From Candidatus Omnitrophota bacterium (GTDB taxonomy: Bacteria > Omnitrophota > Gorgyraeia > Zapsychrales > Fredricksoniimonadaceae), in assembly GCA_903901225.1 (NCBI GenBank), contig CAIUQE010000023.1, forward strand, positions 1 to 36,417: a stretch of 36,417 nt of DNA, read 5' to 3'. The stretch's first letter is position 1, and each line of letters begins with the position of its first letter. The translations under genes and the position numbers were made by a program. Below, in pieces: positions 6,821 to 35,134 of this stretch. The notes beneath the pieces were generated by a model. That model did not search any database. It saw nothing but the letters and a program-made list of their open reading frames with translations, and had not been told where the DNA came from.

Positions 6821-6876
6821 TTTTGGAAAAACTTAAAGATGGATAAACAAGAATGGTTTTGTTAAAATAAAAAATT

Positions 6877-10736: not shown

Positions 10737-12140
10737 ATGAGAGCTTTATTGGTTTCCGGGTTGGTCGTAGCAAGTTTATTGTTGTTGGTACCTGTCTCAA
10801 GGGCGCAGGGGCTGGATGTGGATGCCTTGAGAAAGGAACTGCAGGAACTGCGGGACGAGGTGAAAGGATTAAAGGATGAACTGAAGGTTGTGAAGGAGCA
10901 AAAGCAGGCGTCATCTGTCGCGTCTTCTTCCGGTGCCGCGCAGGGTGGCGTTACCCGGGATGAATTAGCGGGTGTGCGTGGTGAGGTTGAAACACTGCGC
11001 GATGACTGGAAACGCAGCTTTGAGCGCAACACAGCCCAGGCCAGCCGCGCGCTTTCTTTAAGCGGACTTGTCCAGACGCGTTTCAGCACCAAGGACGACG
11101 GCGCTAACAGCACCAACGGGTTCTCGATCCCTTTGCTTCAACTCGGCTTTTCGGGCAGTTTGAAGAAGGATTATGAGGATGGCAAGAACCTTGATTACCT
11201 GGTGAGCTTGTATAGCAATACCACAGCGGATTCGTATCGTGTCGCGCCGCAGGACGTGTACATCAATTATAACGTCCTTTCGACGCTTGACGCTGAATCG
11301 CCCAGGCTGTCCATTACGACCGGTCAGCAGAAAAAGCCGTTCGGGCGTGATCCCCAGACCACGGAAGAGTACAAGCCGACCATCAGCCTGGCGCAGTTTG
11401 ATTCAAATCTTGGCTTGAGCACAAGGGATATAGGCGTTGTGGTGAAAGGCGATCTTTTGCCCATCAATGATTACGGGTACAATTACCGCGTCCCGCTGGT
11501 CGAATATTCTCTCGGTGTGCTCAACGGGGCCGGGCAGAATATCGCTGACAATAACAAATCAAAAGATTACGTTGGCCGGCTGGTGCTTAACGCGCCGGTG
11601 GATTACAACTCGGTATTCCGTGGTTTATCCATAGGTGGTTCCGTTTATGAAGGTCAACAGCCCCGCACCGCCACACTTTCCGGGGTGTCCGTCATACGCG
11701 GCCAGGGCGCGAAAGAAAGGCTCGGGGCGGATATCGGCTATGTGCGTACGCCCATCGGGTTCACGGCGGAATATGCGCAGGGTTACGACGAGATCCTTGG
11801 CGGGACTTCTTCAGTTCCCACGGAGCGCAGCATCAGGAGCCACGGCTACGCCGGCACTGTTTTCTATAACTTCGGCCAGCAGTTCCTCAAGGCGTCCAGG
11901 ACGCAAAGCCGTTACGACGACTGGTTTCCCCGGACGTATCAGCCGTTCATCCGTTATGACCACTGGGATCCGAACACCAATGTTTCCAATGACGCATCGG
12001 ATGTTTACACACTGGGTTTCAACTGGTTCTTTGCCCAGACAACGAAGTTGCAGTTGAACTATAACATCAAACAAACGCGCTCGGCTGCCAATGCACCGGA
12101 CAGTAATGAATTACTGGCGCAATTCCAATATGGATTCTGA
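10737..12140 (+). CDS. Outer-membrane porin with N-terminal coiled coil
   Basis: This 467-residue protein has a signal peptide ending near VSRAQG and a coiled coil at about residues 25-100 (heptads such as LRKELQELRDEVKGLKDELK). The rest is a beta-barrel region rich in alternating aromatic strands, ending in Phe, the usual outer-membrane insertion signal. The layout resembles OprO/OprP-type porins; the coiled coil could anchor or trimerise the protein in the periplasm. AGGAGGAG precedes the ATG. As the first gene after attenuator B it probably admits the compound that the following binding protein captures. Confidence 0.8.
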   Translation: MRALLVSGLVVASLLLLVPVSRAQGLDVDALRKELQELRDEVKGLKDELKVVKEQKQASSVASSSGAAQGGVTRDELAGVRGEVETLRDDWKRSFERNTAQASRALSLSGLVQTRFSTKDDGANSTNGFSIPLLQLGFSGSLKKDYEDGKNLDYLVSLYSNTTADSYRVAPQDVYINYNVLSTLDAESPRLSITTGQQKKPFGRDPQTTEEYKPTISLAQFDSNLGLSTRDIGVVVKGDLLPINDYGYNYRVPLVEYSLGVLNGAGQNIADNNKSKDYVGRLVLNAPVDYNSVFRGLSIGGSVYEGQQPRTATLSGVSVIRGQGAKERLGADIGYVRTPIGFTAEYAQGYDEILGGTSSVPTERSIRSHGYAGTVFYNFGQQFLKASRTQSRYDDWFPRTYQPFIRYDHWDPNTNVSNDASDVYTLGFNWFFAQTTKLQLNYNIKQTRSAANAPDSNELLAQFQYGF

Positions 12141-12161: not shown

Positions 12162-13238
12162 ATGAAAAGGTTATGGAGTGTCGTATTCGGAGTTTTGTTC
12201 CTGAGTGTTGCCGTAGCACCATCAGCCACAGCGGCTGACGCAAAAAAACCGGCCGTGATCCGCATCGGCACCGCGTTCACCGCGGGCAACAGCCGCCCGT
12301 TCTCGCTGCAGACGATCGGTGTGCTTCACCAGCAGGGCCTTCTTGAAGAGGAATTCAAGAAGGACGGGATCAAGATCGAGTGGGTGTTCTTCAAAGGCGT
12401 GAGTCCTGCCGTGAACGAAGCGTTCGCCAATGACACGATCGATATCGGGGCCACGAGCGAACTGGGCGCCATTATCGCCAAGGCGGGCGGGCTCAAGATC
12501 AAGCTGATCGCCAGCGGCGGTACGCGCGGCAATTCCTACCTGGCGGTACCCATTGATTCCCAGGCGACAAAAGTGGAGGACCTCAAGGGGGCGAAGCTGG
12601 CGACAAGCAATGCCACGAATTTCCAGCTGGCGTTTGAACGCATCCTGCAGTTGAAGGGCCTGACGCACAAGGATTTCAAGGCCTATAACCTCGGGCCGGC
12701 GGATGGTGTCGCGGCGCTCGCCTCCAAGGATATCAACGGGGCGGTTTACGGGACCCAGCTTTTCGCGCCCCGTCGTCTTGGACTGGTCAAGATCATCTAT
12801 TCGACGCGGGATGATTTCCCGGATAAGTGGAAATCTTTCAGTGGTATTTTCGTGACGGAGAAGTTCGCTAAGGATCATCCTGATCTTACGGAGCGTTTCC
12901 TGAAGGTGTTCGCGCGGGCCGCCAAGTGGGCGTCGGATGAGAATAACCGCGAGGCGTATTTCCTGGGTCAGGCCAAGACCGGGACGTCGGTGAATGATAT
13001 TCGCGAGGACGCCGAAGGCACGCCCTTGAGCGTTAAGAACACCCCCTTGCTTGATGACTTTGTCGTTGGGCATTTCCGGGATACGATCCAGTTCGCCCTT
13101 GAGCGCGGGTTGATCCGCAAGGCGTACGATGTTAACAGTCTCGTTGACGCGTCATTCCTGGAAGCGGCGTTGAAGGATGAGGGGCTGGACCATTTCTGGG
13201 CCAAGTATGATGGAGAAGGCAAGGAAACAACGAAATAA
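12162..13238 (+). CDS. SsuA/TauA-like periplasmic binding protein
   Basis: This NitT/TauT-family solute-binding protein of 358 residues has a signal peptide ending near ATAADA. Family features are IRIGTAFTAGNSRP, GVLHQQGLLEEEF, FFKGVSPAVNEAFANDTIDIGATSE, and VEDLKGAKLAT. These proteins bind sulfonates, taurine, nitrate or similar anions and pass them to SsuBC-type transporters, which are encoded at 17003-20537. The ligand is unknown; a sulfonate, sulfinate or related organosulfur compound is inferred from the desulfinase downstream. AAGGAG precedes the start. Confidence 0.87.
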   Translation: MKRLWSVVFGVLFLSVAVAPSATAADAKKPAVIRIGTAFTAGNSRPFSLQTIGVLHQQGLLEEEFKKDGIKIEWVFFKGVSPAVNEAFANDTIDIGATSELGAIIAKAGGLKIKLIASGGTRGNSYLAVPIDSQATKVEDLKGAKLATSNATNFQLAFERILQLKGLTHKDFKAYNLGPADGVAALASKDINGAVYGTQLFAPRRLGLVKIIYSTRDDFPDKWKSFSGIFVTEKFAKDHPDLTERFLKVFARAAKWASDENNREAYFLGQAKTGTSVNDIREDAEGTPLSVKNTPLLDDFVVGHFRDTIQFALERGLIRKAYDVNSLVDASFLEAALKDEGLDHFWAKYDGEGKETTK

Positions 13239-13264: not shown

Positions 13265-14041
13265 ATGAGCGCATTATTAACACAAGACATCAATTATGAC
13301 GCGATCAAGGATCCGCAGGTCGTGACGCTTCTCAAAGGGTTAAAACACCGGCGTTTCAACGCGTATTACGCGCCGGACGCGGAAACCGCCCGCAAGATCG
13401 TCCTGGAATTAGTCCCGGCGGATGTGAAGATCGGCACCGGGGATTCGACCTCGGCGACACAGCTGGGGATAGCGGATGCCCTGAAAGAAAGAGGCAATGT
13501 TGTTTACGACGCCCACAGGCGGGGTAATACGTGGGAAGAAACACATCGGGCCAGCGCGCTTTCCTACAGTTCCGATTGCCGTTACTTCCTGACGGGCACC
13601 AACGCGGTGACCCAGGATGGCCGGCTGGTGAATGTTGACGCGGTCGGCAACCGCGTCGGTGGCATGTTTTACGGCCATGAGCATTCGGTCCTGATCATTA
13701 GCCGTAACAAGATCGTCAAGGACCTCGACGCGGCGTTCCACAGGATCCGGACGCAGATATCGCCCCAGCACGTGAAGATCCGCAGCACGGATCTTGGCGG
13801 CCGGCCGTTCAAAACGGGATGCGTCAAGACGGGTGTTTGCGTGGATTGTCAGGGAGAGGATCGCACTTGCAATGTGTTCACGGTCATTGAAGGCAAGCCC
13901 AAGCGGACAACGGTCCATGTCGTAGTCGTTGACCTTGACATCGGGCTGGGCTGGGACCCGTCGTGGCCCCAGGAACGGATCCAGAAGATCATTGACGGGT
14001 ACAAGTCACTGGTCTGGATCCCGCCGCAACTGAAGAACTGA
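13265..14041 (+). CDS. LUD-domain protein with C-terminal cysteine cluster
   Basis: This 258-residue protein resembles the LUD (DUF162) domain of lactate-utilisation proteins: KIGTGDSTSATQLGI, RRGNTWEETHRASALSYSSDCRYFLTGTNAVTQDGRLVNVDAVGNRVGGM-like core, and HEHSVLIISRNKIVKDL. After residue 180 come four cysteines (GCVKTGVCVDCQG...TCNV) that could hold an Fe-S cluster or zinc. LUD proteins in lactate operons help oxidise 2-hydroxy acids, but stand-alone members are uncharacterised. It has no signal peptide. The terminator after it separates it from the next gene. Confidence 0.78.
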   Translation: MSALLTQDINYDAIKDPQVVTLLKGLKHRRFNAYYAPDAETARKIVLELVPADVKIGTGDSTSATQLGIADALKERGNVVYDAHRRGNTWEETHRASALSYSSDCRYFLTGTNAVTQDGRLVNVDAVGNRVGGMFYGHEHSVLIISRNKIVKDLDAAFHRIRTQISPQHVKIRSTDLGGRPFKTGCVKTGVCVDCQGEDRTCNVFTVIEGKPKRTTVHVVVVDLDIGLGWDPSWPQERIQKIIDGYKSLVWIPPQLKN

Positions 14042-14129: not shown

Positions 14130-15380
14130 ATGGCCGTTGAGCGTTTGCTGGAAATAGACAGGCTGGGGCGTAAATATCCGGATGTGCCAAGATTCATTAT
14201 CCTCAAGCTTGACCTGCTGCGTCGCGGGGCGCGTTTGACCGCCCGGGCTTTGGATGCGGTGCAGAATGACGCGTACCGTTTTGGCCCGATGCTCATTTTC
14301 TTCAAAGGGGGCGGCAGCAAGAAGACTGACCGTTCCAATCCCGGGTCCATGCTCCTGCGTGATGGCACGACCGCGCCGGTGTCGTTCGAGGAGTATTTTG
14401 AAGATCCTTACCGGGTGGACTATCAGGGTGGGAAGTTCATCCTTTACGACGGGCGCGCGCGGGTGGACGAAGTGGATTTCACGCCGCGCCCTAAATATTA
14501 CGGCCATCTCACCACGAGCGGCATCCCCATGGAATCGATCGCCAGCGCCCGCGCCCAGCGGTTGATCATTTGCGCGTACCGGCATTGCCATCTTTGGGAC
14601 ACGGGCGACCAGTGCAAATACTGCGCGTTCTTTACCGACCTGAAAGCGTCGCGTCCGGCCTTTGACACGCCGCTGCGCCGGGGCGTGAACCCGGAAGATA
14701 TTTATGAGACGGTGCGCGAAGTGCTCAAGGAGCCGGGGCGCATCTCCGAGATCTACCTCACCGCGGGCATGGATTACCGCGGAGAGCATTTCTTTGATGA
14801 GGAAGTGGAGCGGTATATCCGTATCCTGCAGGCGATCGGCCGGAATTTCAAGGGCCGCTTCTCCAGCCAGATCATGGCGCCTGCGTATTCCAAAGCCCAG
14901 TTGACCCGGCTTTACCGCGAAACGGGGTTGACATCATATTGTCCCAATATTGAGGTCTGGGACGAGCGTTTGTTCGGGTGGATCTGCCCGGGAAAAAATA
15001 AATGGCCGGGGCGCAAGGAGTGGATCAAACGGACGCTGGATGCCGTCGATATTTTCGGCAAGGGCAATGTTTACACGCAGGTTGTCGCCGGAGTGGAGCT
15101 GGCCAGGCCCCACGGGTTCAAGACGGTTGACGCGGCATTGCGTTCCAATCTTGAAGCGTGCGAATTTTTCGCCAAACGCGGCGTTATCTTTTTGAGCACC
15201 GTCTGGAGGATGAATCCCGCCTCCGCTTTGGCCGGGCAGAAGAATCCGCCGCTGGAATATATTATCCGGTTGTCGAAAGGCCTTTATGACATACGCAAAG
15301 CGTACGGCCTCAGTTCGGATAATGACGATTATAAACACTGCGGCAATCACGCTGACGCGGACCTGGAAAGGATCGACTGA
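14130..15380 (+). CDS. Radical-SAM family enzyme with unusual cysteine spacing
   Basis: This 416-residue protein holds C148-x4-C153-x8-C162-x2-C165 (ICAYRHCHLWDTGDQCKYCAF). The final CX2C fits a radical-SAM [4Fe-4S] site, but the canonical CX3CX2C is replaced by CX8CX2C, recalling the CX9CX2C of Elp3. Downstream features agree with a radical-SAM barrel: ISEIYLTAGMDY, SSQIMAPAYS, YCPNIEVWDERLF, and GNVYTQVVAGVELARPHG. About 145 residues precede the cluster. Such enzymes cleave SAM to start radical chemistry; a C-S bond cleavage would fit the cluster, but that is inference. The substrate is unknown. Confidence 0.75.
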   Translation: MAVERLLEIDRLGRKYPDVPRFIILKLDLLRRGARLTARALDAVQNDAYRFGPMLIFFKGGGSKKTDRSNPGSMLLRDGTTAPVSFEEYFEDPYRVDYQGGKFILYDGRARVDEVDFTPRPKYYGHLTTSGIPMESIASARAQRLIICAYRHCHLWDTGDQCKYCAFFTDLKASRPAFDTPLRRGVNPEDIYETVREVLKEPGRISEIYLTAGMDYRGEHFFDEEVERYIRILQAIGRNFKGRFSSQIMAPAYSKAQLTRLYRETGLTSYCPNIEVWDERLFGWICPGKNKWPGRKEWIKRTLDAVDIFGKGNVYTQVVAGVELARPHGFKTVDAALRSNLEACEFFAKRGVIFLSTVWRMNPASALAGQKNPPLEYIIRLSKGLYDIRKAYGLSSDNDDYKHCGNHADADLERID

Positions 15381-15382
15381 GT

Positions 15383-15880
15383 ATGGGGCACGATCATAAA
15401 ACAGCGGCGCTCGCGTCGGGCGTTGTGGCTTTGTTGAAGGACAGGAAGGCCGTGAAGGTCGTAGGGTCTTTGAACGCGGATGGCTCTCCATACATAGAGG
15501 TCAATGATGCTTTGACAACGCTTGATGCCTCGACATTGATCCTGCCGGAGGAACTGGAGAAATCGGCCGGGAACAGGAACCTGGTGCGCAGCATCTGGTT
15601 TGACAAGCCCGTGACGTTCCACGTGGGGCGCGGCGATGAGGCGTACTACATTCAGGCTAAAGTTTACCGGTGTTTGATCGCGGGCAAACTGTTCGAGCAG
15701 ATGCTCCTGCGCAAAAGGGCCGAAGAGGGGGCGGACGCTGACATTTCGGTCGTATGGGAATTTATTCCTGTTTCGGTCGAGGAGGTGACGGTGAAGGTCC
15801 TGAGAAAAGAACAGGAAGCGCGGCATCCGTATTTTGACAGGCATTTGGATCGGGCAAGCATAAAGACCGGAAGTAATTAA
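15383..15880 (+). CDS. PNPOx-like FMN-binding protein
   Basis: This 165-residue protein has the split-barrel pattern of pyridoxamine-phosphate-oxidase-like flavoproteins: VVALLKDRKAVKVVGSLNADGSPYIEV, then SIWFDKPVTFHV and YYIQAKVYRCLIAGKLFE. Relatives are flavin reductases or flavin- and heme-handling proteins. It starts two bases after the radical-SAM stop, so the two are probably co-translated; it may supply reduced flavin or electrons to its neighbours. Exact chemistry is not visible. Confidence 0.72.
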   Translation: MGHDHKTAALASGVVALLKDRKAVKVVGSLNADGSPYIEVNDALTTLDASTLILPEELEKSAGNRNLVRSIWFDKPVTFHVGRGDEAYYIQAKVYRCLIAGKLFEQMLLRKRAEEGADADISVVWEFIPVSVEEVTVKVLRKEQEARHPYFDRHLDRASIKTGSN

Positions 15881-15893
15881 AAGGAGGCTTACC

Positions 15894-16982
15894 ATGAGTG
15901 CGATCGCGAAAAGATCAAAGAAAGTCAGCAAGGCGAAGACGGGCAAGAGATCAAAAGAGATATTCTATACCATTTGCCCCGTGCAGGTGGCGTCGCATGT
16001 GGCCGTCGAAAAAGGCTGGCTGGATGAGGCGTTTAAAAAGGTGGGCGCCACAGCGCGTTTCCTGCGCGCCTTACCCAAGGACCAGTGGCTGCCGCATTTC
16101 ACGCACCGGCGCCCCGAGCTTTTCCGCGACGGGGGGAACATTCCTCCTATCTGGGCCAGGTCGGAAGGTGTTGACACAAAATTGATCGGGCTGACCTTTG
16201 CCGGCACGGGCGGCAAGATCGTCGTCAAGGTTGGTTCAGGCATCCGTTCGATCCAGGACCTCAGAGGTAAAAAGATAGGGCTTTCACTGCGTCGCACCAA
16301 AGACCGGGTGGATTTCGCGCGCGCCACGGCGCATCGCAGCATCCTTCTGGCGCTGGGTTATGCCGGCCTCAGTGAGCGTGATGTCCAGCTGGTCGACATC
16401 CCTGAATTCGAGGCCAAAGAGGGGGATCCTTCCTGGTCGGTGCTTTCTTCGGCGGAGACTCCGGTGGAATTCTGGGGCAAGGGAAAATTGAAGTCGGTGG
16501 CCTGGAATGACGGGAAGGCGTTGCTCGACGGGACGGTGGACGCGGTTTTCTCAGGGCACGGACGTTCCGCCAAACTCGAATCGGAAGGCCTGGTGACCAC
16601 CATTGAAGACCTGGGCCGTTATCCCGACTGGACAACGCAGGTGGCCAATACGCCGACCGCGATCACGGTCAATACCGAGCTGGCCAAGAGCCATCCCGAG
16701 ATCGTTGTGGCCTGGCTCAAGGCGTCGATCAAGGCCGGGCAGTGGATCCGCAAGAATCCCGAAGCGGCGGCGGAGATCCTGGCGGAAGTTACCATTTATG
16801 GATGCTTCCATCATTTGGTCCGGGACCTCGCGACGTACAATTATGTGCCGAACCTGTCCGGGAAAAGCCTGGGCGGCATTGAGGTGGAAAAGAACTTCCT
16901 GTTGGAGCACGGGTATATCAAGAACGATTTCGACGTGCGCGCGTGGGCGGATGACAGTTTCTTAAAACAAGCCCTTAAATAA
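15894..16982 (+). CDS. DszB-like desulfinase (SsuA-fold, cytoplasmic)
   Basis: This 362-residue protein has the NitT/TauT binding-protein fold but no signal peptide; the N-terminus is a lysine-rich cytoplasmic tail. It strongly recalls DszB, the 2-(2-hydroxyphenyl)benzenesulfinate desulfinase of Rhodococcus. Cys28 in YTICPVQ, His68 in HFTHRRP and Arg78 in FRDGGNIPP match DszB Cys27, His60 and Arg70, with the RxGG motif and the same 10-residue His-Arg spacing. The end, ARGWADD-like SFLKQALK, also resembles DszB. DszB releases sulfite from an aryl sulfinate. The true substrate here is unknown. AAGGAGG precedes the ATG. An alternative is a cytoplasmic sensor derived from a binding protein. Confidence 0.78.
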   Translation: MSAIAKRSKKVSKAKTGKRSKEIFYTICPVQVASHVAVEKGWLDEAFKKVGATARFLRALPKDQWLPHFTHRRPELFRDGGNIPPIWARSEGVDTKLIGLTFAGTGGKIVVKVGSGIRSIQDLRGKKIGLSLRRTKDRVDFARATAHRSILLALGYAGLSERDVQLVDIPEFEAKEGDPSWSVLSSAETPVEFWGKGKLKSVAWNDGKALLDGTVDAVFSGHGRSAKLESEGLVTTIEDLGRYPDWTTQVANTPTAITVNTELAKSHPEIVVAWLKASIKAGQWIRKNPEAAAEILAEVTIYGCFHHLVRDLATYNYVPNLSGKSLGGIEVEKNFLLEHGYIKNDFDVRAWADDSFLKQALK

Positions 16983-17002: not shown

Positions 17003-18946
17003 ATGAGTCTCGCTTACAAATTCCTCGCCAAGTTCCTGTTCCTGTCTTTTTTCAGCGGGATATTTGTCGGGATGTCGGCGATCGTCATCAACCTTTACGC
17101 GGTGCACATGGATGCCGGCGCCGCGCAGATCGGGCTTATCACCGGCATGCAGGGGTTCGGGGTGCTCATCACCGGCATCCCGTTCGGCATCCTGATAGAC
17201 CGCTACGGGGCCAAGGTCGTGTATGTCCTCGGCGGGTTGATCGGCTCGACAGTGTTCCTGTTCGTGCCGATGGCGAACACCCCCTGGACGCTGCTGGCGG
17301 TCACTTTCCTGGTCGGGCTGTTCGCTTCGATGCGCTATGTGTCGATGAACAGTATCTTTTTCGAGCACCTGGAGCTTATCGGCAACAACAAGGCCGGATG
17401 GTATAAAGGCGCCCAGTCCGCCGGTATGGTATTCATCGGGCCTGTCCTGGGGATATTCCTGGTCAACCATATCGGCTTCCGGTTCACGTTCTATACGATC
17501 GGGATGTGGATCCTCGTGACCGCGGTCATCGCGCAGCTTATCCTGACCCAGCGCGAGATCGAACGGGAACTGGAAGCATTCACCTGGCTGGGGACCGTCC
17601 ATCAGTTGAAAAGCCTCCTGAAGAACAGGCTGCTGGTCACGACATCGGTCGTGGAATTCGCGGCCCTGAGCGCGAATGCCTGTTTTTCCGGGTTCATCAT
17701 CGCGATCGCGCTGCGCGTGTTCCATCTGCCGAAAGAGAGCGCGGCGCTGTTCATATCGTCGCAGGGCGTGGTGTTCGTGATCACGGTCTTTTCGCTCAAC
17801 GCCTGGGTGTCCAGGCTCGGCGAGAGGTACTGGTACATGACCGCCCTGGGGATCATCATATCCGGGCTGCTGTTCCTGGGCCTGGCCGCGGTGCCGTTGC
17901 AGTTGTGGGCCGGCGCTGTCCTGCTGGGCGTGGGGCTGGGGATGATCAACATTGTCAACGTGTCGCGGATAGCGCGCAGCGGCCACAAGAAAGGCAAGGT
18001 CGCCGGGTTCTTTTCGCTCTTTAGCATGGGCGGCGGGATCGCGGGGCCGGTGATCGGCGGTTTCATCGGTACGGTTTATGGCTTGCAGGCGACCTATCTT
18101 TGCCTGATCCCTGTTTTTCTGGCGCTGGGATTATATTTGAAATTAAAGGTCACGGGACGAAAATGGCTGTCCGCCTGGACCGTGAAGATCAGGGATTCCC
18201 TGTTAGGCTTTATCCTTCCCATCGGCCTGTTGGCGCTTTGGGAGTTCGTCACGCGCTTTGGCCTGGCGCCGAGGGAGCTTTTGGTGCCGCCGCAGGACGT
18301 GTGGGCAAGTTTCTGCGAGTTTGTCAAAGACGGCACGCTACTCGAGAATCTTGGCGTCAGCCTGACGCGGATATTCTTCGGTTTTTCCTGGGGAGCGGCG
18401 GCGGGAGTTATTTTCGGGATAGCCATGGGTTATTCACGCCAGGTTGAACGGTACGTGGGCCCGCTCTTTCACGCGTTCCGCCAGGTGCCGATGTTCGGGT
18501 GGATGCCGTTCCTGATCCTGCTGACGGGCATCGACGAGACCTTCAAGATCATTTTTGTGGGATTGACCGCTTTTATCCCGATGGTCCTTAATACATATGA
18601 GGGCGTCAGGAATATTCCCGGCGAGTACCTGGAGGTGGCCAGGGTGTTCGCGTACGGGCGTCGCCGGCTTTTCTGGCGGGTCATTATCCCGGGCGCCATG
18701 CCCGCGATATTCACGGGCGTGCGCACAAGCCTGAGCATGGCGTGGATGTCGGTGGTCGGGGCGGAACTGGTGGCGGCGAGCTCCGGGATCGGCAATTTGA
18801 TGGCGGGCGCGCGCAACATGTTCAGGTACGATATCGTATTTGTCGGCGTGATCGTTATCGGTCTTGTTGGGTTTGCCATGAATTCCATCGCGGCCATGCT
18901 GGAAGCCCATGTCCTGCGCTGGCGTAAAACATTTGTTGAGAAATGA
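17003..18946 (+). CDS. Fusion of MFS transporter and SsuC-type ABC permease
   Basis: One uninterrupted 647-residue frame holds two transporters. Residues 1 to about 385 are an MFS carrier with roughly 12 membrane segments and the loop GILIDRYGAKVVYVLGG between segments 2 and 3. Residues about 390-647 are an SsuC-type permease with the coupling loop EYLEVARVFAYGRRRLFWRVIIPGAMPAIFTG and the start ILPIGLLALWEFV. The second half should pair with the SsuC-like protein encoded next and the ATPase at 19758. I know of no described MFS-ABC permease fusion; a start codon at the junction or a misassembly is not evident. The MFS part may export a product or take an alternative substrate. Confidence 0.85.
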   Translation: MSLAYKFLAKFLFLSFFSGIFVGMSAIVINLYAVHMDAGAAQIGLITGMQGFGVLITGIPFGILIDRYGAKVVYVLGGLIGSTVFLFVPMANTPWTLLAVTFLVGLFASMRYVSMNSIFFEHLELIGNNKAGWYKGAQSAGMVFIGPVLGIFLVNHIGFRFTFYTIGMWILVTAVIAQLILTQREIERELEAFTWLGTVHQLKSLLKNRLLVTTSVVEFAALSANACFSGFIIAIALRVFHLPKESAALFISSQGVVFVITVFSLNAWVSRLGERYWYMTALGIIISGLLFLGLAAVPLQLWAGAVLLGVGLGMINIVNVSRIARSGHKKGKVAGFFSLFSMGGGIAGPVIGGFIGTVYGLQATYLCLIPVFLALGLYLKLKVTGRKWLSAWTVKIRDSLLGFILPIGLLALWEFVTRFGLAPRELLVPPQDVWASFCEFVKDGTLLENLGVSLTRIFFGFSWGAAAGVIFGIAMGYSRQVERYVGPLFHAFRQVPMFGWMPFLILLTGIDETFKIIFVGLTAFIPMVLNTYEGVRNIPGEYLEVARVFAYGRRRLFWRVIIPGAMPAIFTGVRTSLSMAWMSVVGAELVAASSGIGNLMAGARNMFRYDIVFVGVIVIGLVGFAMNSIAAMLEAHVLRWRKTFVEK

Positions 18947-18949
18947 CCC

Positions 18950-19729
18950 ATGCCCGGAAAAAATAAATTCTTATGGAGGGATCTTTGGGCCGGCCTGGCC
19001 CTTCCGCTGGGGCTGCTCGCGGCCTGGAAACTGGTGTCCGCCGCCGGGTGGGTGAACGCGTCCCTATTGCCGTCGCCGGAAAAGGTCCTGAAGGTCATTG
19101 GAGATTCGCTGGCGGACGGGTTCCTTGTGAAGAACCTTTTGATCAGTTTCAACCGGGTGATCAAAGGGTTCCTTGCCGGTTCCACCATAGGCTTTGTCCT
19201 GGGAACATGGATGGGGCTGTCGAAGACGGCTGAAAAGGTATTTGGCCCGTTCTTTCACGCCATCCGCAATGTGCCCTTGGTGGGATGGGTGCCGCTGTTC
19301 ATCATCTGGTTCGGTTTCGGGGAGTTTTCGCAGGTCGTTTTTATTTCCGTGGGGGCGTTCTATCCGGTCGTCCTCAACACGTTGCAGGGTATCCGCGGCG
19401 TCCGACGTGAGTATGTCGAACTGGGGCGGGTGTTCGGTTTCAGCCGGTTGAAGGTTTTCACGAGGATCATCCTTCCGGCCGCGATCCCGTCGGTGTTCAC
19501 CGGCGTGCGCCTGAGCCTGAGCATTTCGTGGATGCTGGTCGTGGCCGCCGAACTTTTTGGCGTTTCGACCGGCGGGGTGGGTAACATGATGATGGACGCG
19601 CGGGAATTTTTCAAGATGGACATCGTGATCATGGGCATACTGACGATCGGGGTTGTCGGGTTCATCATGAACCAGCTGCTGGCAATGATCGAAGGGCATT
19701 TCTTATCCTGGAAGCGGAAAGCCGCGTAA
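18950..19729 (+). CDS. SsuC/TauC-type ABC permease
   Basis: This 259-residue inner-membrane permease has about six hydrophobic segments, the family opening NASLLPSPEKVLKVI, and the coupling loop EYVELGRVFGFSRLKVFTRIILPAAIPSVFTGVRLSLSISW-like. It starts three bases after the fusion gene and is a close relative of that protein's C-terminal half, so a heterodimeric channel (this protein plus the fused permease) is likely. Substrate is probably a sulfonate-like anion. Confidence 0.9.
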   Translation: MPGKNKFLWRDLWAGLALPLGLLAAWKLVSAAGWVNASLLPSPEKVLKVIGDSLADGFLVKNLLISFNRVIKGFLAGSTIGFVLGTWMGLSKTAEKVFGPFFHAIRNVPLVGWVPLFIIWFGFGEFSQVVFISVGAFYPVVLNTLQGIRGVRREYVELGRVFGFSRLKVFTRIILPAAIPSVFTGVRLSLSISWMLVVAAELFGVSTGGVGNMMMDAREFFKMDIVIMGILTIGVVGFIMNQLLAMIEGHFLSWKRKAA

Positions 19730-19757
19730 GGACAATGGTATTTTTGGGGAGTTGTAT

Positions 19758-20537
19758 ATGACAGAAGCGGGGAAATTATATATTCGCGCGTTGAACAAGA
19801 AGTTCAACGTGGACGCGAAGGAGATATCGGTCCTGGAGGACATCAACCTGACGGTCGAGGGGGGGGAGTTCATCAGCATCATCGGCACGAGCGGTTGCGG
19901 GAAGACGACATTGCTGAAACTTATTGTCGGGTTGGGTGGGGCGTATGACGGCGATATTATCCTTAACGGGCAAAGGGTCGATGGCCCCGGCCTCGAGCGT
20001 GGCATTGTGTTTCAGGATCACCGCCTGCTGCCCTGGCTTACCGTCAGTGAGAATATCGGCTTCGGGCTTGATGCCAAAATCAAGAAAGCCGAGCGCCAGG
20101 AGATCATCCGCAAGCATATCCAGCTGATCGGCCTGAGGGGTTTTGAGAAAGCTTACCCGTACCAGTTGTCCGGCGGGATGGCCCAGCGCGCCGCGATCGC
20201 GCGGTCTTTGGTGAACCGCCCGGCGATCCTGATGCTCGATGAGCCGTTGGGGGCGCTCGATGCTTTGACGCGCATGTATATGCAAAGGGAACTGGAAAAG
20301 ATATGGAAAGAGGAGCGGATCGCCATGATCATGGTCACGCATGACGTCGAAGAGGCGATCTACCTGGCGGACAAGGTCGTGGTCATGTCCAGCCGGCCCG
20401 GCAGGATCAAGAAGGTCATCCCTGTCGGTTTATCGCGCCCGCGCGACCGGGATAGTTATGAGTTTATTCGGATCAAGGACGAGATCCTGAAAGAATTCCA
20501 TCTGGAAGCGGAGAAATATTTTTCCTATTCGATCTAG
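19758..20537 (+). CDS. SsuB/TauB-type ABC ATPase
   Basis: This ATPase of about 259 residues drives the importer. Walker A is GTSGCGKTT, the Q-loop is VFQDHRLLPWLTVSENIGFGL, the signature is LSGGMAQRAAIARSL, Walker B is LMLDEPLGALD and the switch His is in MVTHDVEEAI. QDHRLLPW is typical of nitrate/sulfonate/taurine transporters. I chose ATG 19758, six bases after GGGGAG; a TTG at 19752 is also in frame. The stop at 20535-20537 is followed directly by the MFS reading frame. Confidence 0.92.
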   Translation: MTEAGKLYIRALNKKFNVDAKEISVLEDINLTVEGGEFISIIGTSGCGKTTLLKLIVGLGGAYDGDIILNGQRVDGPGLERGIVFQDHRLLPWLTVSENIGFGLDAKIKKAERQEIIRKHIQLIGLRGFEKAYPYQLSGGMAQRAAIARSLVNRPAILMLDEPLGALDALTRMYMQRELEKIWKEERIAMIMVTHDVEEAIYLADKVVVMSSRPGRIKKVIPVGLSRPRDRDSYEFIRIKDEILKEFHLEAEKYFSYSI

Positions 20538-20631: not shown

Positions 20632-21816
20632 ATGCAGAAGGTGGCGGAGCAGTGGCTGGTCTATCGCCTGACGGGTTCGGTCCTCATGCTGGGGCTGGTC
20701 GGGTTCCTGGGCCAGATCCCCACCTTCGTCCTCGCGCCGTTCGCCGGGGTCGTGGCGGACAGGCACGACCGCCGCAAGCTCCTGCTTGTGATCCAGGCGT
20801 TCGCCATGTTCCAGGCCATAGCCTTGTCGGCGCTGGTGCTGTCCCATACCATCCAGATATGGCATATCATGGCCCTGAGTTTTATTCTCGGTGTTGTTAA
20901 CGCATTCGATATTCCCATCCGCCAGTCATTCACCATCGAAATGGTCGAAGCCAATGACGGCAGGGACCTGGGCAACGCGATCGCCATGAATTCATCGATG
21001 ATCAACATGGCGAAGCTGGTGGGCCCCTCGGTCGCGGGCATCCTCATCGTCCTGGTCGGAGAGGGGCTGTGCTTTCTATTGAATGCCATCAGTTATCTGG
21101 CTGTCATAGCGTCCCTTCTGGCCATGAATATGAGGCCCCGCGCGGCTGTTGTCGTCGAAAAGCATATTTTCCATGACCTTAAGGAGGGCCTGGATTATTC
21201 CCTCAAGTTCGGGCCGATAAAATATATCCTGTTCATCCTGGCCGTGAACAGTCTCATGGGCCATCCGTATATGGTATTGATGCCTGTGTTCGCGAGGAAG
21301 GTGTTGCATGGCGGGCCGCATACCTTGGGGTTCCTGATGGGCAGCGCCGGCACCGGCGCCTTGATCGGGGCGTTTTACCTGGCGAGCCGGGATTCTGTCC
21401 GTGGGCTGATCGGCCGTATCTGGACAGCGTCGCTCTTGTTCGGCATCGCGCTCATCGGCTTTTCATTTTCTACCGTCTTGTGGTTGTCCATGGCGCTGCT
21501 CATGCTGGCCGGCTTTGGCATGATGGTCCAGATGGCGGCAAGCAATACGATCCTGCAGACGATCGTCGACGGGCGGATGCGCGGGCGGGTGATGAGTTTT
21601 TACACGATGTCGTTGATGGGCATGACGCCTTTTGGCAGCCTGTTCGGGGGGTGCGTGGCGGACAGGATCGGCGCGCCGCGCACGCTGCTCATCGGCGGCG
21701 TGGCGTGCATGGGGGCGGCATTGTTCTTCTGGCGTAAAATGCCCGTGATCAAGGAAAAGATACGGCCGGTCTATATTGAGAAGGGGATACTCTCCGACGG
21801 GGAAGCCGCGGCCTGA
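20632..21816 (+). CDS. MFS transporter (EntS/MFS_3-like), true start upstream and non-ATG
   Basis: This is a major-facilitator carrier of at least 394 residues with the loop GVVADRHDRRKLLLV and about 11-12 membrane segments. ATG 20632 is the first ATG, but convincing MFS sequence continues upstream in the same frame: FDPRQVFAALGHRNYRLFFTGQGISLIGTW, starting at about 20542, so the protein probably begins near 20527-20545. That stretch offers no ATG, GTG or TTG, only ATT at 20527 or CTG at 20569. Use of a rare start coupled to the ATPase stop, or a small frameshift, is likely. It may export a product of organosulfur breakdown such as sulfite, or a toxic remnant; that is only a guess. Confidence 0.82.
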   Translation: MQKVAEQWLVYRLTGSVLMLGLVGFLGQIPTFVLAPFAGVVADRHDRRKLLLVIQAFAMFQAIALSALVLSHTIQIWHIMALSFILGVVNAFDIPIRQSFTIEMVEANDGRDLGNAIAMNSSMINMAKLVGPSVAGILIVLVGEGLCFLLNAISYLAVIASLLAMNMRPRAAVVVEKHIFHDLKEGLDYSLKFGPIKYILFILAVNSLMGHPYMVLMPVFARKVLHGGPHTLGFLMGSAGTGALIGAFYLASRDSVRGLIGRIWTASLLFGIALIGFSFSTVLWLSMALLMLAGFGMMVQMAASNTILQTIVDGRMRGRVMSFYTMSLMGMTPFGSLFGGCVADRIGAPRTLLIGGVACMGAALFFWRKMPVIKEKIRPVYIEKGILSDGEAAA

Positions 21817-21855: not shown

Positions 21856-21887
21856 TTTAGTCATATTTGAAATTTGGAGAGCCGGAA

Positions 21888-22289
21888 ATGAAGTTGACCT
21901 CCCGCAGTGAATACGCCTTATTGGCCCTGTTGTACCTTGCCCGGCACGGCAGTGACAAGCTTGTGACCGTGGATACCATTGCCAAGGCCCAGGATATTCC
22001 TCCCAAGTTCCTTGAACAGATCTTGTTGCTGCTCAAGCGCGCCAGGTACTTGAAGAGTTCCAAGGGCCAGCATGGCGGTTACGCGCTGGGTAAGCCCGCT
22101 GAAAAGATCACCCTGGCCGAGATCGTGCGCCTGATCGATGGCGCGCTGGCGCCGACCGAATCGGTCAGCGTCTATTTCTTCGAGCATACGCCTATAGAGA
22201 AAGAGAAGAACCTGATCCGCGTGTTCAAGGATATCAGGGATTACGTGTCCAAGAAGCTGGAGAACACGACGCTGGCAGACCTGGTTTAG
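21888..22289 (+). CDS. Rrf2-family transcription regulator without cysteines
   Basis: This 133-residue winged-helix regulator begins MKLTSRSEYALLALLYLARHG, with the recognition helix region KAQDIPPKFLEQILLLLKRARYLKSSKGQHGGYALGKPAEKITLAEIVRLIDG typical of Rrf2 proteins (shown here by its landmarks IPPKFLEQIL and GGYAL). The central loop has no Cys, so unlike IscR or NsrR it should not hold an Fe-S cluster; CymR, the cysteine-metabolism repressor, is similar in this respect. I chose ATG 21888 with GGAG upstream rather than ATG 21867, which overlaps the predicted transcript start. It probably controls its own cluster in response to sulfur or cysteine status. Confidence 0.87.
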   Translation: MKLTSRSEYALLALLYLARHGSDKLVTVDTIAKAQDIPPKFLEQILLLLKRARYLKSSKGQHGGYALGKPAEKITLAEIVRLIDGALAPTESVSVYFFEHTPIEKEKNLIRVFKDIRDYVSKKLENTTLADLV

Positions 22290-31045: not shown

Positions 31046-31100
31046 AAAGCGGGGACATGTACCAAATTCGCCCTTTGAATTTGGTACGTGCCCCCGGATC
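31046..31100 (+). repeat. Palindromic repeat family 1, copy 6
   Basis: A nearly perfect copy (loop GCCCTTT; right arm ends GTGCCCCCGGATC) between metY2 and the giant gene; it ends nine bases before the latter's ATG. Confidence 0.92.
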
Positions 31101-31108
31101 GAATAATT

Positions 31109-34100
31109 ATGGATCAACAGATAAAGAAAACACCTGTGTTCAAAGCGGTCGCGATCGCGCTCGTTACAGCCATGCTGAGCGCGATACCGCTGCAGTCCGG
31201 CTACGCGCAGGTCGTGGCGCCGGCCGCTCTTCTGTATCCGACGGGTGGGTTCAATCCCGCGCAGATGGTGGGGTTGAGGACCGATGCCAATGATCCCTTC
31301 CATTTTTATTTCGTGATGGACAAGGGCGATGAGGCCTTGTCAGCATCGCGGAAGCAGGAAGAATACCGCCGGCTCATCAAGCATTTTTTGGTGTCGTTGA
31401 CGGTCGCCAACAAGGACATGTGGGTCAACCTTTCGCCCTACGAGTCCAACCGGACGATCGGCGCTAATTTCGCGCTGACCGCCACAGGGCAGGACCTTCT
31501 GGCGCAGGATTACATCCTCAAGCAATTCACCGCCTCGCTCATGTATCCTGAAGAAGATGCCGGGCGCGATTTCTGGAAAAAGGTTTACAGCCAGGTCTAT
31601 GAAAAATTTGGGACGACCGATGTTCCGGTCGATACGTTCAATAAGGTCTGGATCCGGGCGGACCAGGCTGAGATCTATCAAAAGGATGGCACAGCATTCC
31701 TGGTCAAAAGCCATCTGAAGGTCATGCTTGAGAAGGATTTTCTGGCGGAAGACAATGCCCGCGCGATGGATGTCGGCATAACCGCGGCGGGAAATCCTGC
31801 CGGGGCTTCCGGTGAAGTGACGGCGGATGCGGTTCGGGGGATCATCATCCCGATCATTGAAAAGGAAGTCAATGAAGGCCGGAATTTTATCCCCTTGCGG
31901 CAGATCTACAACGCGATGATCCTGGCGACATGGTACAAGAAAAATCTCAAGGAGAGCCTGCTGAGTCAGGTCTACGCGGACAAGAACAAAGTCGCGGGTG
32001 TCGAGGTCGATGACCCCAAGGCCGGAGAAAAGGTCTACGCGAAATACCTGGAAGCGTTCAAGGTTGGCGTATTCAACTATATCAAGGAAGAAGAGGATCC
32101 ACGGACGCATACCACACTGCCGAGGAAATATTTTTCAGGTGGAGCCGTCGGCGTGGAAGACGGTATTATTGCGGACGCGTCCCAGGCAGCAACGGCTGAA
32201 TTCTTGAACAGGCCGCATGATATTGTTGATACCGGCCTGAAAGACACTGATCTTGCGCAGCGGCAGGAGGCTCTGGCTCAGGTTGAGAGGTTGATCAGCC
32301 AGGCTCTCGCCACCGCGCATGTCACGCCGGGCAAGGGGCAGATCTATTTTTATGTGCCGAAGGATGCGCCGCAGGGCAATGTGCTTGCGCTGTACGCTGA
32401 TCAATATCCATCCAGGGTAAAAGTATTTGAACGTTGGGAGGATCTGCAGAAAGCATTGACGCCGGATACCGCCGGTGTGTTCTTTCCTTTCGCGCAAAAA
32501 GATATCCCCTCGTCCGTGATCAGTGCCGCGGCCGTCAAAAATCCCTCTACACATCTGGTGTCCATACTAACGCGCGTGGCGGTATCGGATACTTCAGACC
32601 GTCCGGCCGCTTTCAAGGAGTATCTTTTAAAGCTGAAAGCGTCGCCGTTGGATGCCAATAGGAAGGTTGAGCTTGCGGTAGAATTCCTTGAGACGCAGTG
32701 GCTGGCCGGCAACGATGCCGAGCGCCGTAAGTATAAAGGCGTGAGCACGGCTTCCGGCGTGTCCGGAATGGCTGACGTGATCAAGTATTTGTTCCTGAGG
32801 AATAAGGGTATCGTTAACCCGAACATTGTTTTGATCCGTTCGGCGTACGGCGGTACGGACGCGAACCTGGACTTTTACAAGAGTTTCGGGCTTGATATCC
32901 GTTATGTGACCGATCCTGACAAAGAGCTGGAGGACGCGCTGGATGAGAACACGATCGGCGTGATCTTTGAGTCGCCGAACAATCCGCCCTTGAGGGTCTG
33001 GGATATCCGGAAGATCGTTGAGACGGTCAAAGCCCACGCACCGCGCGCGTTGAGCATTTTTGACGGGGCGTTCGGTACGCCGGCGGGCCAGCAGCCGCTC
33101 AAGTTCGGGGTGGATATTGTCGTTCAGGTCGTGACAAAGATGCTTGGCACCGGCAATGCGTTCGGTACTGTTGCGGTTGCCAAAAAAGAGATCGCGGACC
33201 AGTTGGAGCATGTCCGCAGCGCGACGATACATCCGGATGACGCCAGGAGGATATTTGAAGCAGGGCTTCCCACGTTCTTCGAACGTTACCGGGCCGCGCA
33301 GGAAAACACGCGTTATCTCGCGGCCTGGTTAAAACAGCAGAAGGATGTGGTCACCTCGTTGAGCTATCCAGGGGACGTGGATCATCCACAATTCAAGATC
33401 ACCCAGCGCCAGTCCGAGGGCGAGAATTACGGGAACATGATCTATTTTGACATGCCGGACCTGGAATCGGCCGGCCTGTTCGGCGAGATCCTGGCGTTCC
33501 TGCGGACAACGAAACATTCCGTCAGCCTCGGTGAAATGAGGACTCAGGTGCAATTGCCGCTGAAAGGCGCGGCATCGACGATGCCCGAGGAAGCCAAGAA
33601 GAAGCTTCCTGAAATGGGAATGAGCCTGGCCGGGGTCCGTGTGTCCGTCGGTATCGAGGACCATGAGGATATTATCCGTGATTTTCAGGCCGCGTTCGAT
33701 ATTGTGCGCCGTTTTAGGGGCAGGGAAAGCACGTGCCCCCTGGTTGAATTGCGAGAGATCCTGATGCACCCTACCGTCCAGCCTGACGGTAAAAATGTCG
33801 AGCACGTGGTGCGCCTTTACCCGGTGGTCCGTAAGAATGAGACGGCGGACGGGCTCGCTGTTGAGCCGCGTGTCGAGCGGGCTATCGTGGAATTGACGCG
33901 ACGGTCCCGGTCATGGCCGTTACTGTTAAGGGCGAAATTCGGGTTCCGAAAAGCCAGGCAGAAGATCGATGACACACTGGCCGCGCTGCGCGTCATCCAT
34001 GAAGCCACGCGGATCGACCGGCTTTCAACGCGGACACTGGGTGTCCAGTCGGGGATATTGTGGAATCCGCTGGTCAATCCGTATGCCGTGACACCGGGTG

Positions 34101-35134
34101 GCGAAGAATCGAATGCTTACCTGGTGCAGGGGCCGGACCAGCTCAAACTTGGTTTTGGCGGTCCGTCAGAAGCGGGGAAATCCTGGGATGACAGGATCGA
34201 GGATGTTGTTTCAGGCCTCTCCCGTGTCTATGGGCGCATCGGGACGGCGAATGCTTTGGTCGTCGAGAATATCGTGGCCGCGGCTGAGAGCAGTATCCTC
34301 TCCGGTTTGCACCAGGATGTGCAGGGGGTTTCGGTGCCCTCGTTGGAAACAGCGTTCAATGTCCTTGTGGAAGGCTGGGCGTTGCGGGCTGCGAGGGATG
34401 AAAGGAAAGGGCCTGTCCGCATCGCGGTGGTCGCGCCCAAAGGATCAGCGCTATACGCAAGCGCCGAAAAGTTCCGTAATATTTATGGAGGTGTGTTCCT
34501 TCTGAGGGGGGAGAGGCGCGTCGAGTTTGTTCTGATCGATACGGGGACGGTCGGCGCCATTGAAGAAAGTATCGACCGGCGCGCGGATCTGGTTGTGGTG
34601 GATGAATTCATTGACCAACAGGACCAGAAGGTCCGTCTTTTCAGATCGATCAAAAGTAAAGCCCTGAATAGCCGGTTGGCGGTTGTTAATTCACGCGGCA
34701 TCAAACAGGGTTTCAAGCCCCTAAAATTCGGGGCGGACTTTGTCATCAACGAGTTTACCGACGCCTATGATGAGCCTGTGGCCGCGGTGTTGGTGACGCC
34801 GCGGGAATGGGTGACGCGATTTCTTGCCCGGCGGACCTATACGTCGATCGCTTCGCGCGCGGCCATGCTGGGAATTTTGCCCATGGCGTTCCTCGGGATC
34901 CCGGGTGTTGACAGGGACGCAGCCATGACCCCTGGCGGTATTGATCTGGATGATTCATTGCTGAAGATCAAGCTTGACGGGCAGGGCGTTCCTTTGCCGG
35001 TGCGGCTCCAGGATCCGTCCATGGTGAACATACGCGGGCTCGAACCGGTCATCCGCAGCATTGCGCCGATGACGCCGTTGAACATGCCGATCATATCGCA
35101 AATTGAACAAGCCGTTGGAGGATCCCCGGCTTAA
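31109..35134 (+). CDS. Giant secreted protein with degenerate cystathionine-synthase-like domain(s)
   Basis: This protein of 1,341 residues has a signal peptide to about residue 33 (ending SGYAQ). A module at about 35-330 (PYESNRTIG, DLLAQDYILKQFTASLMYPEEDAGRDFWKKVY-like) and a C-terminal MTPGGIDLDD tail followed by a proline-rich end recall large Omnitrophota proteins. Residues about 535-870 resemble the Cys/Met metabolism PLP family: GVSTASGVSGMADVI, IFESPNNPPLRVWD, and VVTKMLGTGNAFG, where Lys677 sits at the PLP position. Around 1020-1260 a second, weaker copy (GVSVPSLETAF, KFGADFVINEFTD) lacks that lysine. The chain should be exported, which is odd for a PLP fold, so a structural or binding role is possible. 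It has its own start after repeat copy 6 and no clear ribosome site. Confidence 0.8.
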   Translation: MDQQIKKTPVFKAVAIALVTAMLSAIPLQSGYAQVVAPAALLYPTGGFNPAQMVGLRTDANDPFHFYFVMDKGDEALSASRKQEEYRRLIKHFLVSLTVANKDMWVNLSPYESNRTIGANFALTATGQDLLAQDYILKQFTASLMYPEEDAGRDFWKKVYSQVYEKFGTTDVPVDTFNKVWIRADQAEIYQKDGTAFLVKSHLKVMLEKDFLAEDNARAMDVGITAAGNPAGASGEVTADAVRGIIIPIIEKEVNEGRNFIPLRQIYNAMILATWYKKNLKESLLSQVYADKNKVAGVEVDDPKAGEKVYAKYLEAFKVGVFNYIKEEEDPRTHTTLPRKYFSGGAVGVEDGIIADASQAATAEFLNRPHDIVDTGLKDTDLAQRQEALAQVERLISQALATAHVTPGKGQIYFYVPKDAPQGNVLALYADQYPSRVKVFERWEDLQKALTPDTAGVFFPFAQKDIPSSVISAAAVKNPSTHLVSILTRVAVSDTSDRPAAFKEYLLKLKASPLDANRKVELAVEFLETQWLAGNDAERRKYKGVSTASGVSGMADVIKYLFLRNKGIVNPNIVLIRSAYGGTDANLDFYKSFGLDIRYVTDPDKELEDALDENTIGVIFESPNNPPLRVWDIRKIVETVKAHAPRALSIFDGAFGTPAGQQPLKFGVDIVVQVVTKMLGTGNAFGTVAVAKKEIADQLEHVRSATIHPDDARRIFEAGLPTFFERYRAAQENTRYLAAWLKQQKDVVTSLSYPGDVDHPQFKITQRQSEGENYGNMIYFDMPDLESAGLFGEILAFLRTTKHSVSLGEMRTQVQLPLKGAASTMPEEAKKKLPEMGMSLAGVRVSVGIEDHEDIIRDFQAAFDIVRRFRGRESTCPLVELREILMHPTVQPDGKNVEHVVRLYPVVRKNETADGLAVEPRVERAIVELTRRSRSWPLLLRAKFGFRKARQKIDDTLAALRVIHEATRIDRLSTRTLGVQSGILWNPLVNPYAVTPGGEESNAYLVQGPDQLKLGFGGPSEAGKSWDDRIEDVVSGLSRVYGRIGTANALVVENIVAAAESSILSGLHQDVQGVSVPSLETAFNVLVEGWALRAARDERKGPVRIAVVAPKGSALYASAEKFRNIYGGVFLLRGERRVEFVLIDTGTVGAIEESIDRRADLVVVDEFIDQQDQKVRLFRSIKSKALNSRLAVVNSRGIKQGFKPLKFGADFVINEFTDAYDEPVAAVLVTPREWVTRFLARRTYTSIASRAAMLGILPMAFLGIPGVDRDAAMTPGGIDLDDSLLKIKLDGQGVPLPVRLQDPSMVNIRGLEPVIRSIAPMTPLNMPIISQIEQAVGGSPA

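Follow-up and report, generated by a model that had tools for sequence, protein, structure and literature searches.

The gene at positions 15894–16982 of the 36,417-nucleotide Omnitrophota stretch analysed here (the window) encodes a homolog of DszB, the 2'-hydroxybiphenyl-2-sulfinate desulfinase (PDB 2de2, 2de3), that resembles this enzyme over its full length, in its predicted fold, in its Cys-His-Arg-Gly active-site residues and in having no signal peptide. On the strength of sequence and predicted structure, we consider that the protein, P0001, is probably (about two chances in three) a cytosolic DszB-type desulfinase that would free the sulfinate group of an organosulfur compound, taken up through SsuABC-type import, as sulfite or SO2. 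DszB is known from an oxygen-dependent fuel-desulfurising pathway, in which it is the slow step.

Similarity of P0001 to DszB

The open reading frame starts with the ATG at 15894, encodes 362 amino acids and has a stop codon that ends at 16982. The sequence AAAAGGAGG lies a few bases 5' of the ATG. The gene and its predicted active site codons are:

15894–16982, plus strand: DszB-like protein P0001, most likely cytosolic, a putative sulfinate desulfinase with Cys28, His68, Arg78 and Gly80-Gly81 (phmmer, profile, fold, triad and tree)
15975–15977, plus strand: codon of Cys28, equivalent to DszB Cys27 (translation and alignment)
16095–16097, plus strand: codon of His68, equivalent to DszB His60 (translation and alignment)
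16125–16127, plus strand: codon of Arg78, equivalent to DszB Arg70, within RxGG (translation and alignment)

A phmmer search of all PDB sequences returned DszB (2de2) as the sole full-length match to P0001 (E 5.1e-14), aligning residues 23–361 with DszB residues 22–361 at about 24% identity, while the binding proteins in the PDB gave partial matches only, with E values of 0.0047 or worse. A profile constructed from 44 relatives recovered DszB at E 3.4e-28, compared to 4e-7 for the best SsuA. P0001 scored 40.2 bits against PF09084, above the gathering score of 20.5, and 86.2 bits against the SsuA-type family TIGR01728, below the curated cut-off of 163.5.

The preliminary description had matched Cys28, His68 and Arg78 to DszB Cys27, His60 and Arg70, and the phmmer alignment places them so, together with Gly80-Gly81 on Gly72-Gly73. 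In P0001 the three residues are found in the contexts YTICPV, PHFTH and FRDGGNIPP. His and Arg are 10 positions apart in each of the two proteins, whereas the distance from Cys to His is 40 in P0001 and 33 in DszB, an interval longer by 7 residues. Cys27, His60, Arg70 and Gly73 are implicated in DszB catalysis, and RxGG is conserved among DszB homologues (PMC6100217; PMC12168087). Since the E values are low and the triad is nearly invariant in 76 relatives and present in none of six binding proteins (see below), the resemblance goes beyond chance, and we rejected a fortuitous likeness of short motifs.

The AlphaFold model of P0001 (mean pLDDT 86.6) is closest to ligand-bound DszB (2de3_B; Z 31.4, 2.8 Å over 319 residues). 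The next match is SsuA, with Z 25.7 over 291 residues, and sulfonate-binding proteins as a whole reach 25.7 or less. Comparison of a predicted structure with DszB had been proposed as a check, and its outcome agrees with a DszB-related protein. The DszB superfamily is a branch of the sulfonate-binding-protein fold. From the alignment and the modelled fold, the side chains of Cys28, His68 and Arg78 are predicted to share one pocket. Model confidence is lower in residue blocks 61–70 and 171–210, which fall close to the DszB segments, 55–62 and 187–204, that refold upon substrate binding (PMC6100217). The fold search also returned 4,5-dihydroxyphthalate decarboxylase, Thi5 and MqnD. As is proposed for P0001, Thi5 and similar enzymes have a binding-protein fold that has become a cytosolic enzyme, but the structural match of Thi5 is lower (Z about 20.5). 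Active-site residues of Thi5-type enzymes differ from those of the DszB type.

P0001 had been described as lacking a signal peptide, and its N-terminus confirms this: a basic segment leads directly into the first strand, and the hydropathy peak of a 12-mer within residues 1–40 is 1.53, compared to 2.9 in the exported binding protein that its operon encodes. With Pfam, P0001 showed no domain for DNA binding or signalling. The dN/dS of the gene, calculated against a 95%-identical orthologue in a second Omnitrophica record (L011), is 0.063.

Genomic setting of the DszB-like gene

The gene is part of a same-strand run; between the porin and ATPase genes, neighbouring genes are separated by about 2 to 88 bases. 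The other genes of the run are:

10737–12140, plus strand: phosphate-selective porin O/P-like outer-membrane channel (PF07396, 3.6e-15; also in L087)
12162–13238, plus strand: SsuA-like periplasmic binding protein P0004, with a signal peptide and without the triad (PF09084, 8.6e-16)
13265–14041, plus strand: LUD-domain protein (PF02589, 9e-33)
14130–15380, plus strand: variant radical SAM protein P0003 (NF045502, 208 bits, cut-off 125)
15383–15880, plus strand: small PNPOx-like protein P0002 (46% identity to its L087 homologue)
17003–18946, plus strand: MFS transporter fused to an ABC permease, SaoP/SsuC-like (PF07690 and PF00528; fusion kept in L011)
18950–19729, plus strand: ABC permease, SaoP/SsuC-like (PF00528)
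19752–20537, plus strand: ABC ATPase of the SaoA/nitrate/taurine type (family matches)
20632–21816, plus strand: MFS exporter-like protein (PF05977, 3.7e-59)
21867–22289, plus strand: Rrf2-family regulator (PF02082, 3.9e-34)

P0004 scored 124 bits against TIGR01728, below the cut-off. P0002 is probably a flavin split barrel: it has no family match itself, its L087 homologue matches PF01243 at 1.3e-5, just under the cut-off, and its structure, predicted from two sequences, gave no useful information (pLDDT 41). The MFS and permease parts of 17003–18946 are fused in frame; L087 has them as two adjacent genes, and the MFS gene of L013 is likewise separate. Farther out, the window includes genes for an NlpA/NIL-type importer, which probably carries methionine, a NifS-type cysteine desulfurase and Cys/Met-metabolism enzymes. 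A 1348-amino-acid open reading frame at 31088–35134 has a Cys/Met-metabolism PLP domain at residues 550–870 and no Pfam match in the remainder. No Rfam match was found in the window or in four loci.

L011 exhibits the same gene order as the window, and dN/dS between the operon genes of the two ranges from 0.04 to 0.16. This syntenic, 95%-identical record also points to Omnitrophota as the phylum of the window genome. L087, from the Omnitrophota genome G144 of the same class, is a related operon that has no DszB-like gene. It encodes a porin, an SsuA-like protein, two radical SAM/PNPOx-like pairs, a nitroreductase, an FMN reductase, an MFS protein, two permeases, another PNPOx-like protein, an ATPase, a PALP-family (cysteine-synthase-like) enzyme and a SAM synthetase, and it ties this type of operon to sulfur metabolism and to the Omnitrophota. 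The variant radical SAM and PNPOx-like pair is duplicated in tandem at 6856–10490 of L087, within the SsuABC-type operon. Since L087 lacks it, the DszB-like gene is an optional module that is not obligately paired with the radical SAM and PNPOx-like genes. Contamination or a binning artefact is unlikely, as L011 keeps the gene order and L087 is an importer/radical SAM/PNPOx-like operon from the same phylum.

The window genome (2.38 Mb, about 95% complete) contains no match to Bac_luciferase PF00296, the DszA/SsuD-type family, and only two sub-cut-off matches to SfnB (TIGR04022), of the generic acyl-CoA dehydrogenase type; the absence of DszA and DszC noted in the preliminary description is supported for the genome by this family search. 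The same description called the host a probable anaerobe, which agrees with the lack of a haem-copper oxidase (COX1) in the genome and is weakened by one cytochrome bd-like match. The genome encodes one NirA/CysI-like, assimilatory-type sulfite reductase, in a cluster with genes for a sulfate importer, a sulfur carrier and O-acetylhomoserine sulfhydrylase.

Relatives of P0001

Searching for relatives by tblastn against plasmids yielded 140 records, and a single scan of genome contigs yielded 69 loci. Arg-x-Gly-Gly (Arg78, Gly80, Gly81) is present in all 76 aligned relatives, His68 in 75 of them and Cys28 in each of the 74 whose sequence spans that part. Six binding proteins encoded at the loci of these relatives, that of the operon itself among them, have none of the triad residues (0/3 in each case). 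Loss of the triad in close orthologues had been named as grounds against a DszB-related protein; the triad is kept in close and distant ones alike.

The relatives fall into three groups by motif: group A (TNCPLVS, HYIHN, RFGGLFPP), group B, to which P0001 belongs (TICPV, HFTH or HYTH, RDGGNIP or RDGGAIP), and group C (TRCPVPT, SHFxH, RHGGN). A maximum-likelihood tree unites these groups and DszB in one clade (SH-aLRT 99), to the exclusion of seven binding proteins. Within it, DszB branches with group C (88) and group B pairs with group A (98); the exact placement of DszB is unsure because its branch is long. Relatives are annotated as ABC transporter substrate-binding proteins. Only one of 285 genomes of the phylum includes a DszB-like gene, which suggests acquisition.

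In the window and in L011, L013, L014, L057 and L095, ABC-importer genes accompany those of group B. They also occur with the group B relatives of Verrucomicrobia, Aminobacter and one Rhodospirillaceae MAG, several of which have an MFS gene too. In L095, from Verrucomicrobiota, a neighbouring protein has its best NCBIfam match in DszC, the monooxygenase of dibenzothiophene (276 bits, cut-off 850); since this member adjoins a DszC-type monooxygenase, group B is not purely anaerobic. Group C genes adjoin genes for SfnG- and SfnB-like proteins of the luciferase family and the acyl-CoA-dehydrogenase type, and rhizobial relatives adjoin SfnG-like or SfnB-like proteins. A clear orthologue of the radical SAM gene was found only in the Omnitrophica genome among the genomes of seven relatives; it is missing from the Verrucomicrobia and alphaproteobacterial genomes in this set.

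Group A (loci L015–L066) is a tight subfamily with short branches and 36–41% identity to P0001. Its hosts include Bacteroidota, Thermodesulfobacteriota, Pseudomonadota, Actinomycetota, Verrucomicrobiota and methanogen MAGs, and isolates carry the gene as well (L003, L004, L021, L024, L033 and L064). Neighbouring genes encode SulP permeases (23 loci), CoA-disulfide reductase-rhodanese proteins (21), rhodaneses (17) and SBF symporters (13), and the group A loci are probably a mobile sulfur island. Glycyl radical enzyme genes lie near group A genes in L019, L025, L037, L049 and L062, four of the five with activase genes. The enzyme of L062, the one tested, resembles hydroxyproline or sulfopropanediol dehydratases and scores under all cut-offs.

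Two further arrangements were observed. Four DszB-like genes, two of group B and two of group C, are present within 14 kb of a Verrucomicrobia genome (L012, 6195–19760). Genes of the 2-hydroxyacyl-CoA-dehydratase or double-cubane reductase type occur with activases near DszB-like genes in L003 (5439–10867) and L013 (15212–17260), where they possibly encode an ATP-driven reductive partner.

Proposed function and alternative readings

As a desulfinase, P0001 would act downstream of the SsuABC-type importer, which would take up an organosulfur anion. Preparation of this compound may fall to the radical SAM, PNPOx-like and LUD proteins; the sulfinate would be supplied by them or imported directly. 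Cys28, as proton donor or nucleophile, would most likely act like DszB Cys27, with His68, Arg78 and the Gly80-Gly81 backbone holding the SO2 group. In a computational study of DszB, transfer of the Cys proton to the carbon with departure of SO2 was preferred to the earlier proposal of a nucleophilic attack on sulfur (PMC6100217). The sulfinate group would leave P0001 as sulfite or SO2, the assimilatory-type sulfite reductase could reduce sulfite to sulfide for cysteine and methionine synthesis, and the MFS transporter may export the carbon remnant.

P0001 has neighbours of the SsuABC-type importer, radical SAM and PNPOx-like kinds, unlike DszB with its partners DszA and DszC. Because its partners, and possibly its substrate, differ, we name it a putative DszB-type desulfinase and not DszB. 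A precedent for a desulfinase beside sulfonate-importer genes is the bdsABC operon of Gordonia terrae C-6, which encodes a distant desulfinase, is flanked by sulfonate/nitrate/taurine transport genes, and converted benzothiophene when placed in E. coli (PMC3868597). The two are likened by description: both combine a desulfinase (4S-type in bdsABC) with sulfonate-transport genes, but bdsABC belongs to an aerobe and includes two flavin monooxygenases, of which none was found in the window genome. Several observations count against a desulfinase: identity to DszB is about 24%, DszB groups on its long branch with the monooxygenase-linked group C and not with group B, no O2-free step that supplies a sulfinate was identified for the window operon, L087 has the importer, radical SAM and PNPOx-like genes but no DszB-like one, and the Verrucomicrobia and alphaproteobacterial genomes searched lack the radical SAM gene. 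The open-access literature searched describes no activity for any member of the group of P0001, and neither anaerobes with DszB-type enzymes nor a sulfinate route without oxygen are reported in it.

A protein with this fold and active site might instead act on a different group, for instance a carboxylate, where decarboxylation would proceed by protonation in the same way, or a sulfur oxyanion of another kind. The other cytosolic enzymes returned by the fold search lend this some weight, and the Cys-proton chemistry proposed for DszB (PMC6100217) could suit other leaving groups. Nevertheless, we consider it unlikely, as the triad and RxGG match DszB specifically, the window provides a sulfur setting (a sulfonate-type importer, methionine-importer-like genes and Cys/Met enzymes) and sulfur-acquisition-family monooxygenases adjoin relatives. 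It is less likely still, at long odds, that P0001 is a cytosolic protein of SsuA-like descent that senses or binds a ligand without catalysis. The PF09084 score and the binding-protein fold are compatible with such an origin, but a binding protein has no need for a nearly invariant Cys, the family lacks signal peptides, and P0001 carries no domain for binding DNA or for signalling.

Least probable is that P0001 serves the neighbouring ABC importer as a normal periplasmic substrate-binding protein, as automatic annotation, seen in its relatives, and the adjacent permease and ATPase genes might imply. SsuA/TauA/NMT1-type binding proteins share the fold and a remote common descent with P0001, but they possess signal peptides, lack the triad and form a separate clade. 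P0001 falls with DszB by fold and tree and under the TIGR01728 cut-off, and the operon already encodes a signal-peptide-bearing SsuA-like protein without the triad, P0004. We rejected this reading, which is largely refuted by signal peptide, triad and tree.

A broader model can be drawn only tentatively, and we regard it as rather doubtful in its entirety. Omnitrophota may assimilate organosulfur compounds independently of O2, with a radical SAM/flavoprotein module, instead of flavin monooxygenases, making or exposing a sulfinate inside the cell, a DszB-type enzyme freeing sulfite from it, and ABC import and MFS export at either end. DszB would then be part of a large desulfinase superfamily, with members also in MAGs that are classified as strict anaerobes and methanogens.

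Since the O2-dependent partners were not found in the genome, P0001 may cleave sulfur from a compound yet to be named. A large and apparently uncharacterised clade with the DszB active site is hidden behind the label of ABC transporter substrate-binding protein; it is a source of new candidate desulfinases, and sulfinates as a sulfur source in anoxic settings become testable. The family may also be a further instance in which catalysis arose on a transport-protein fold.
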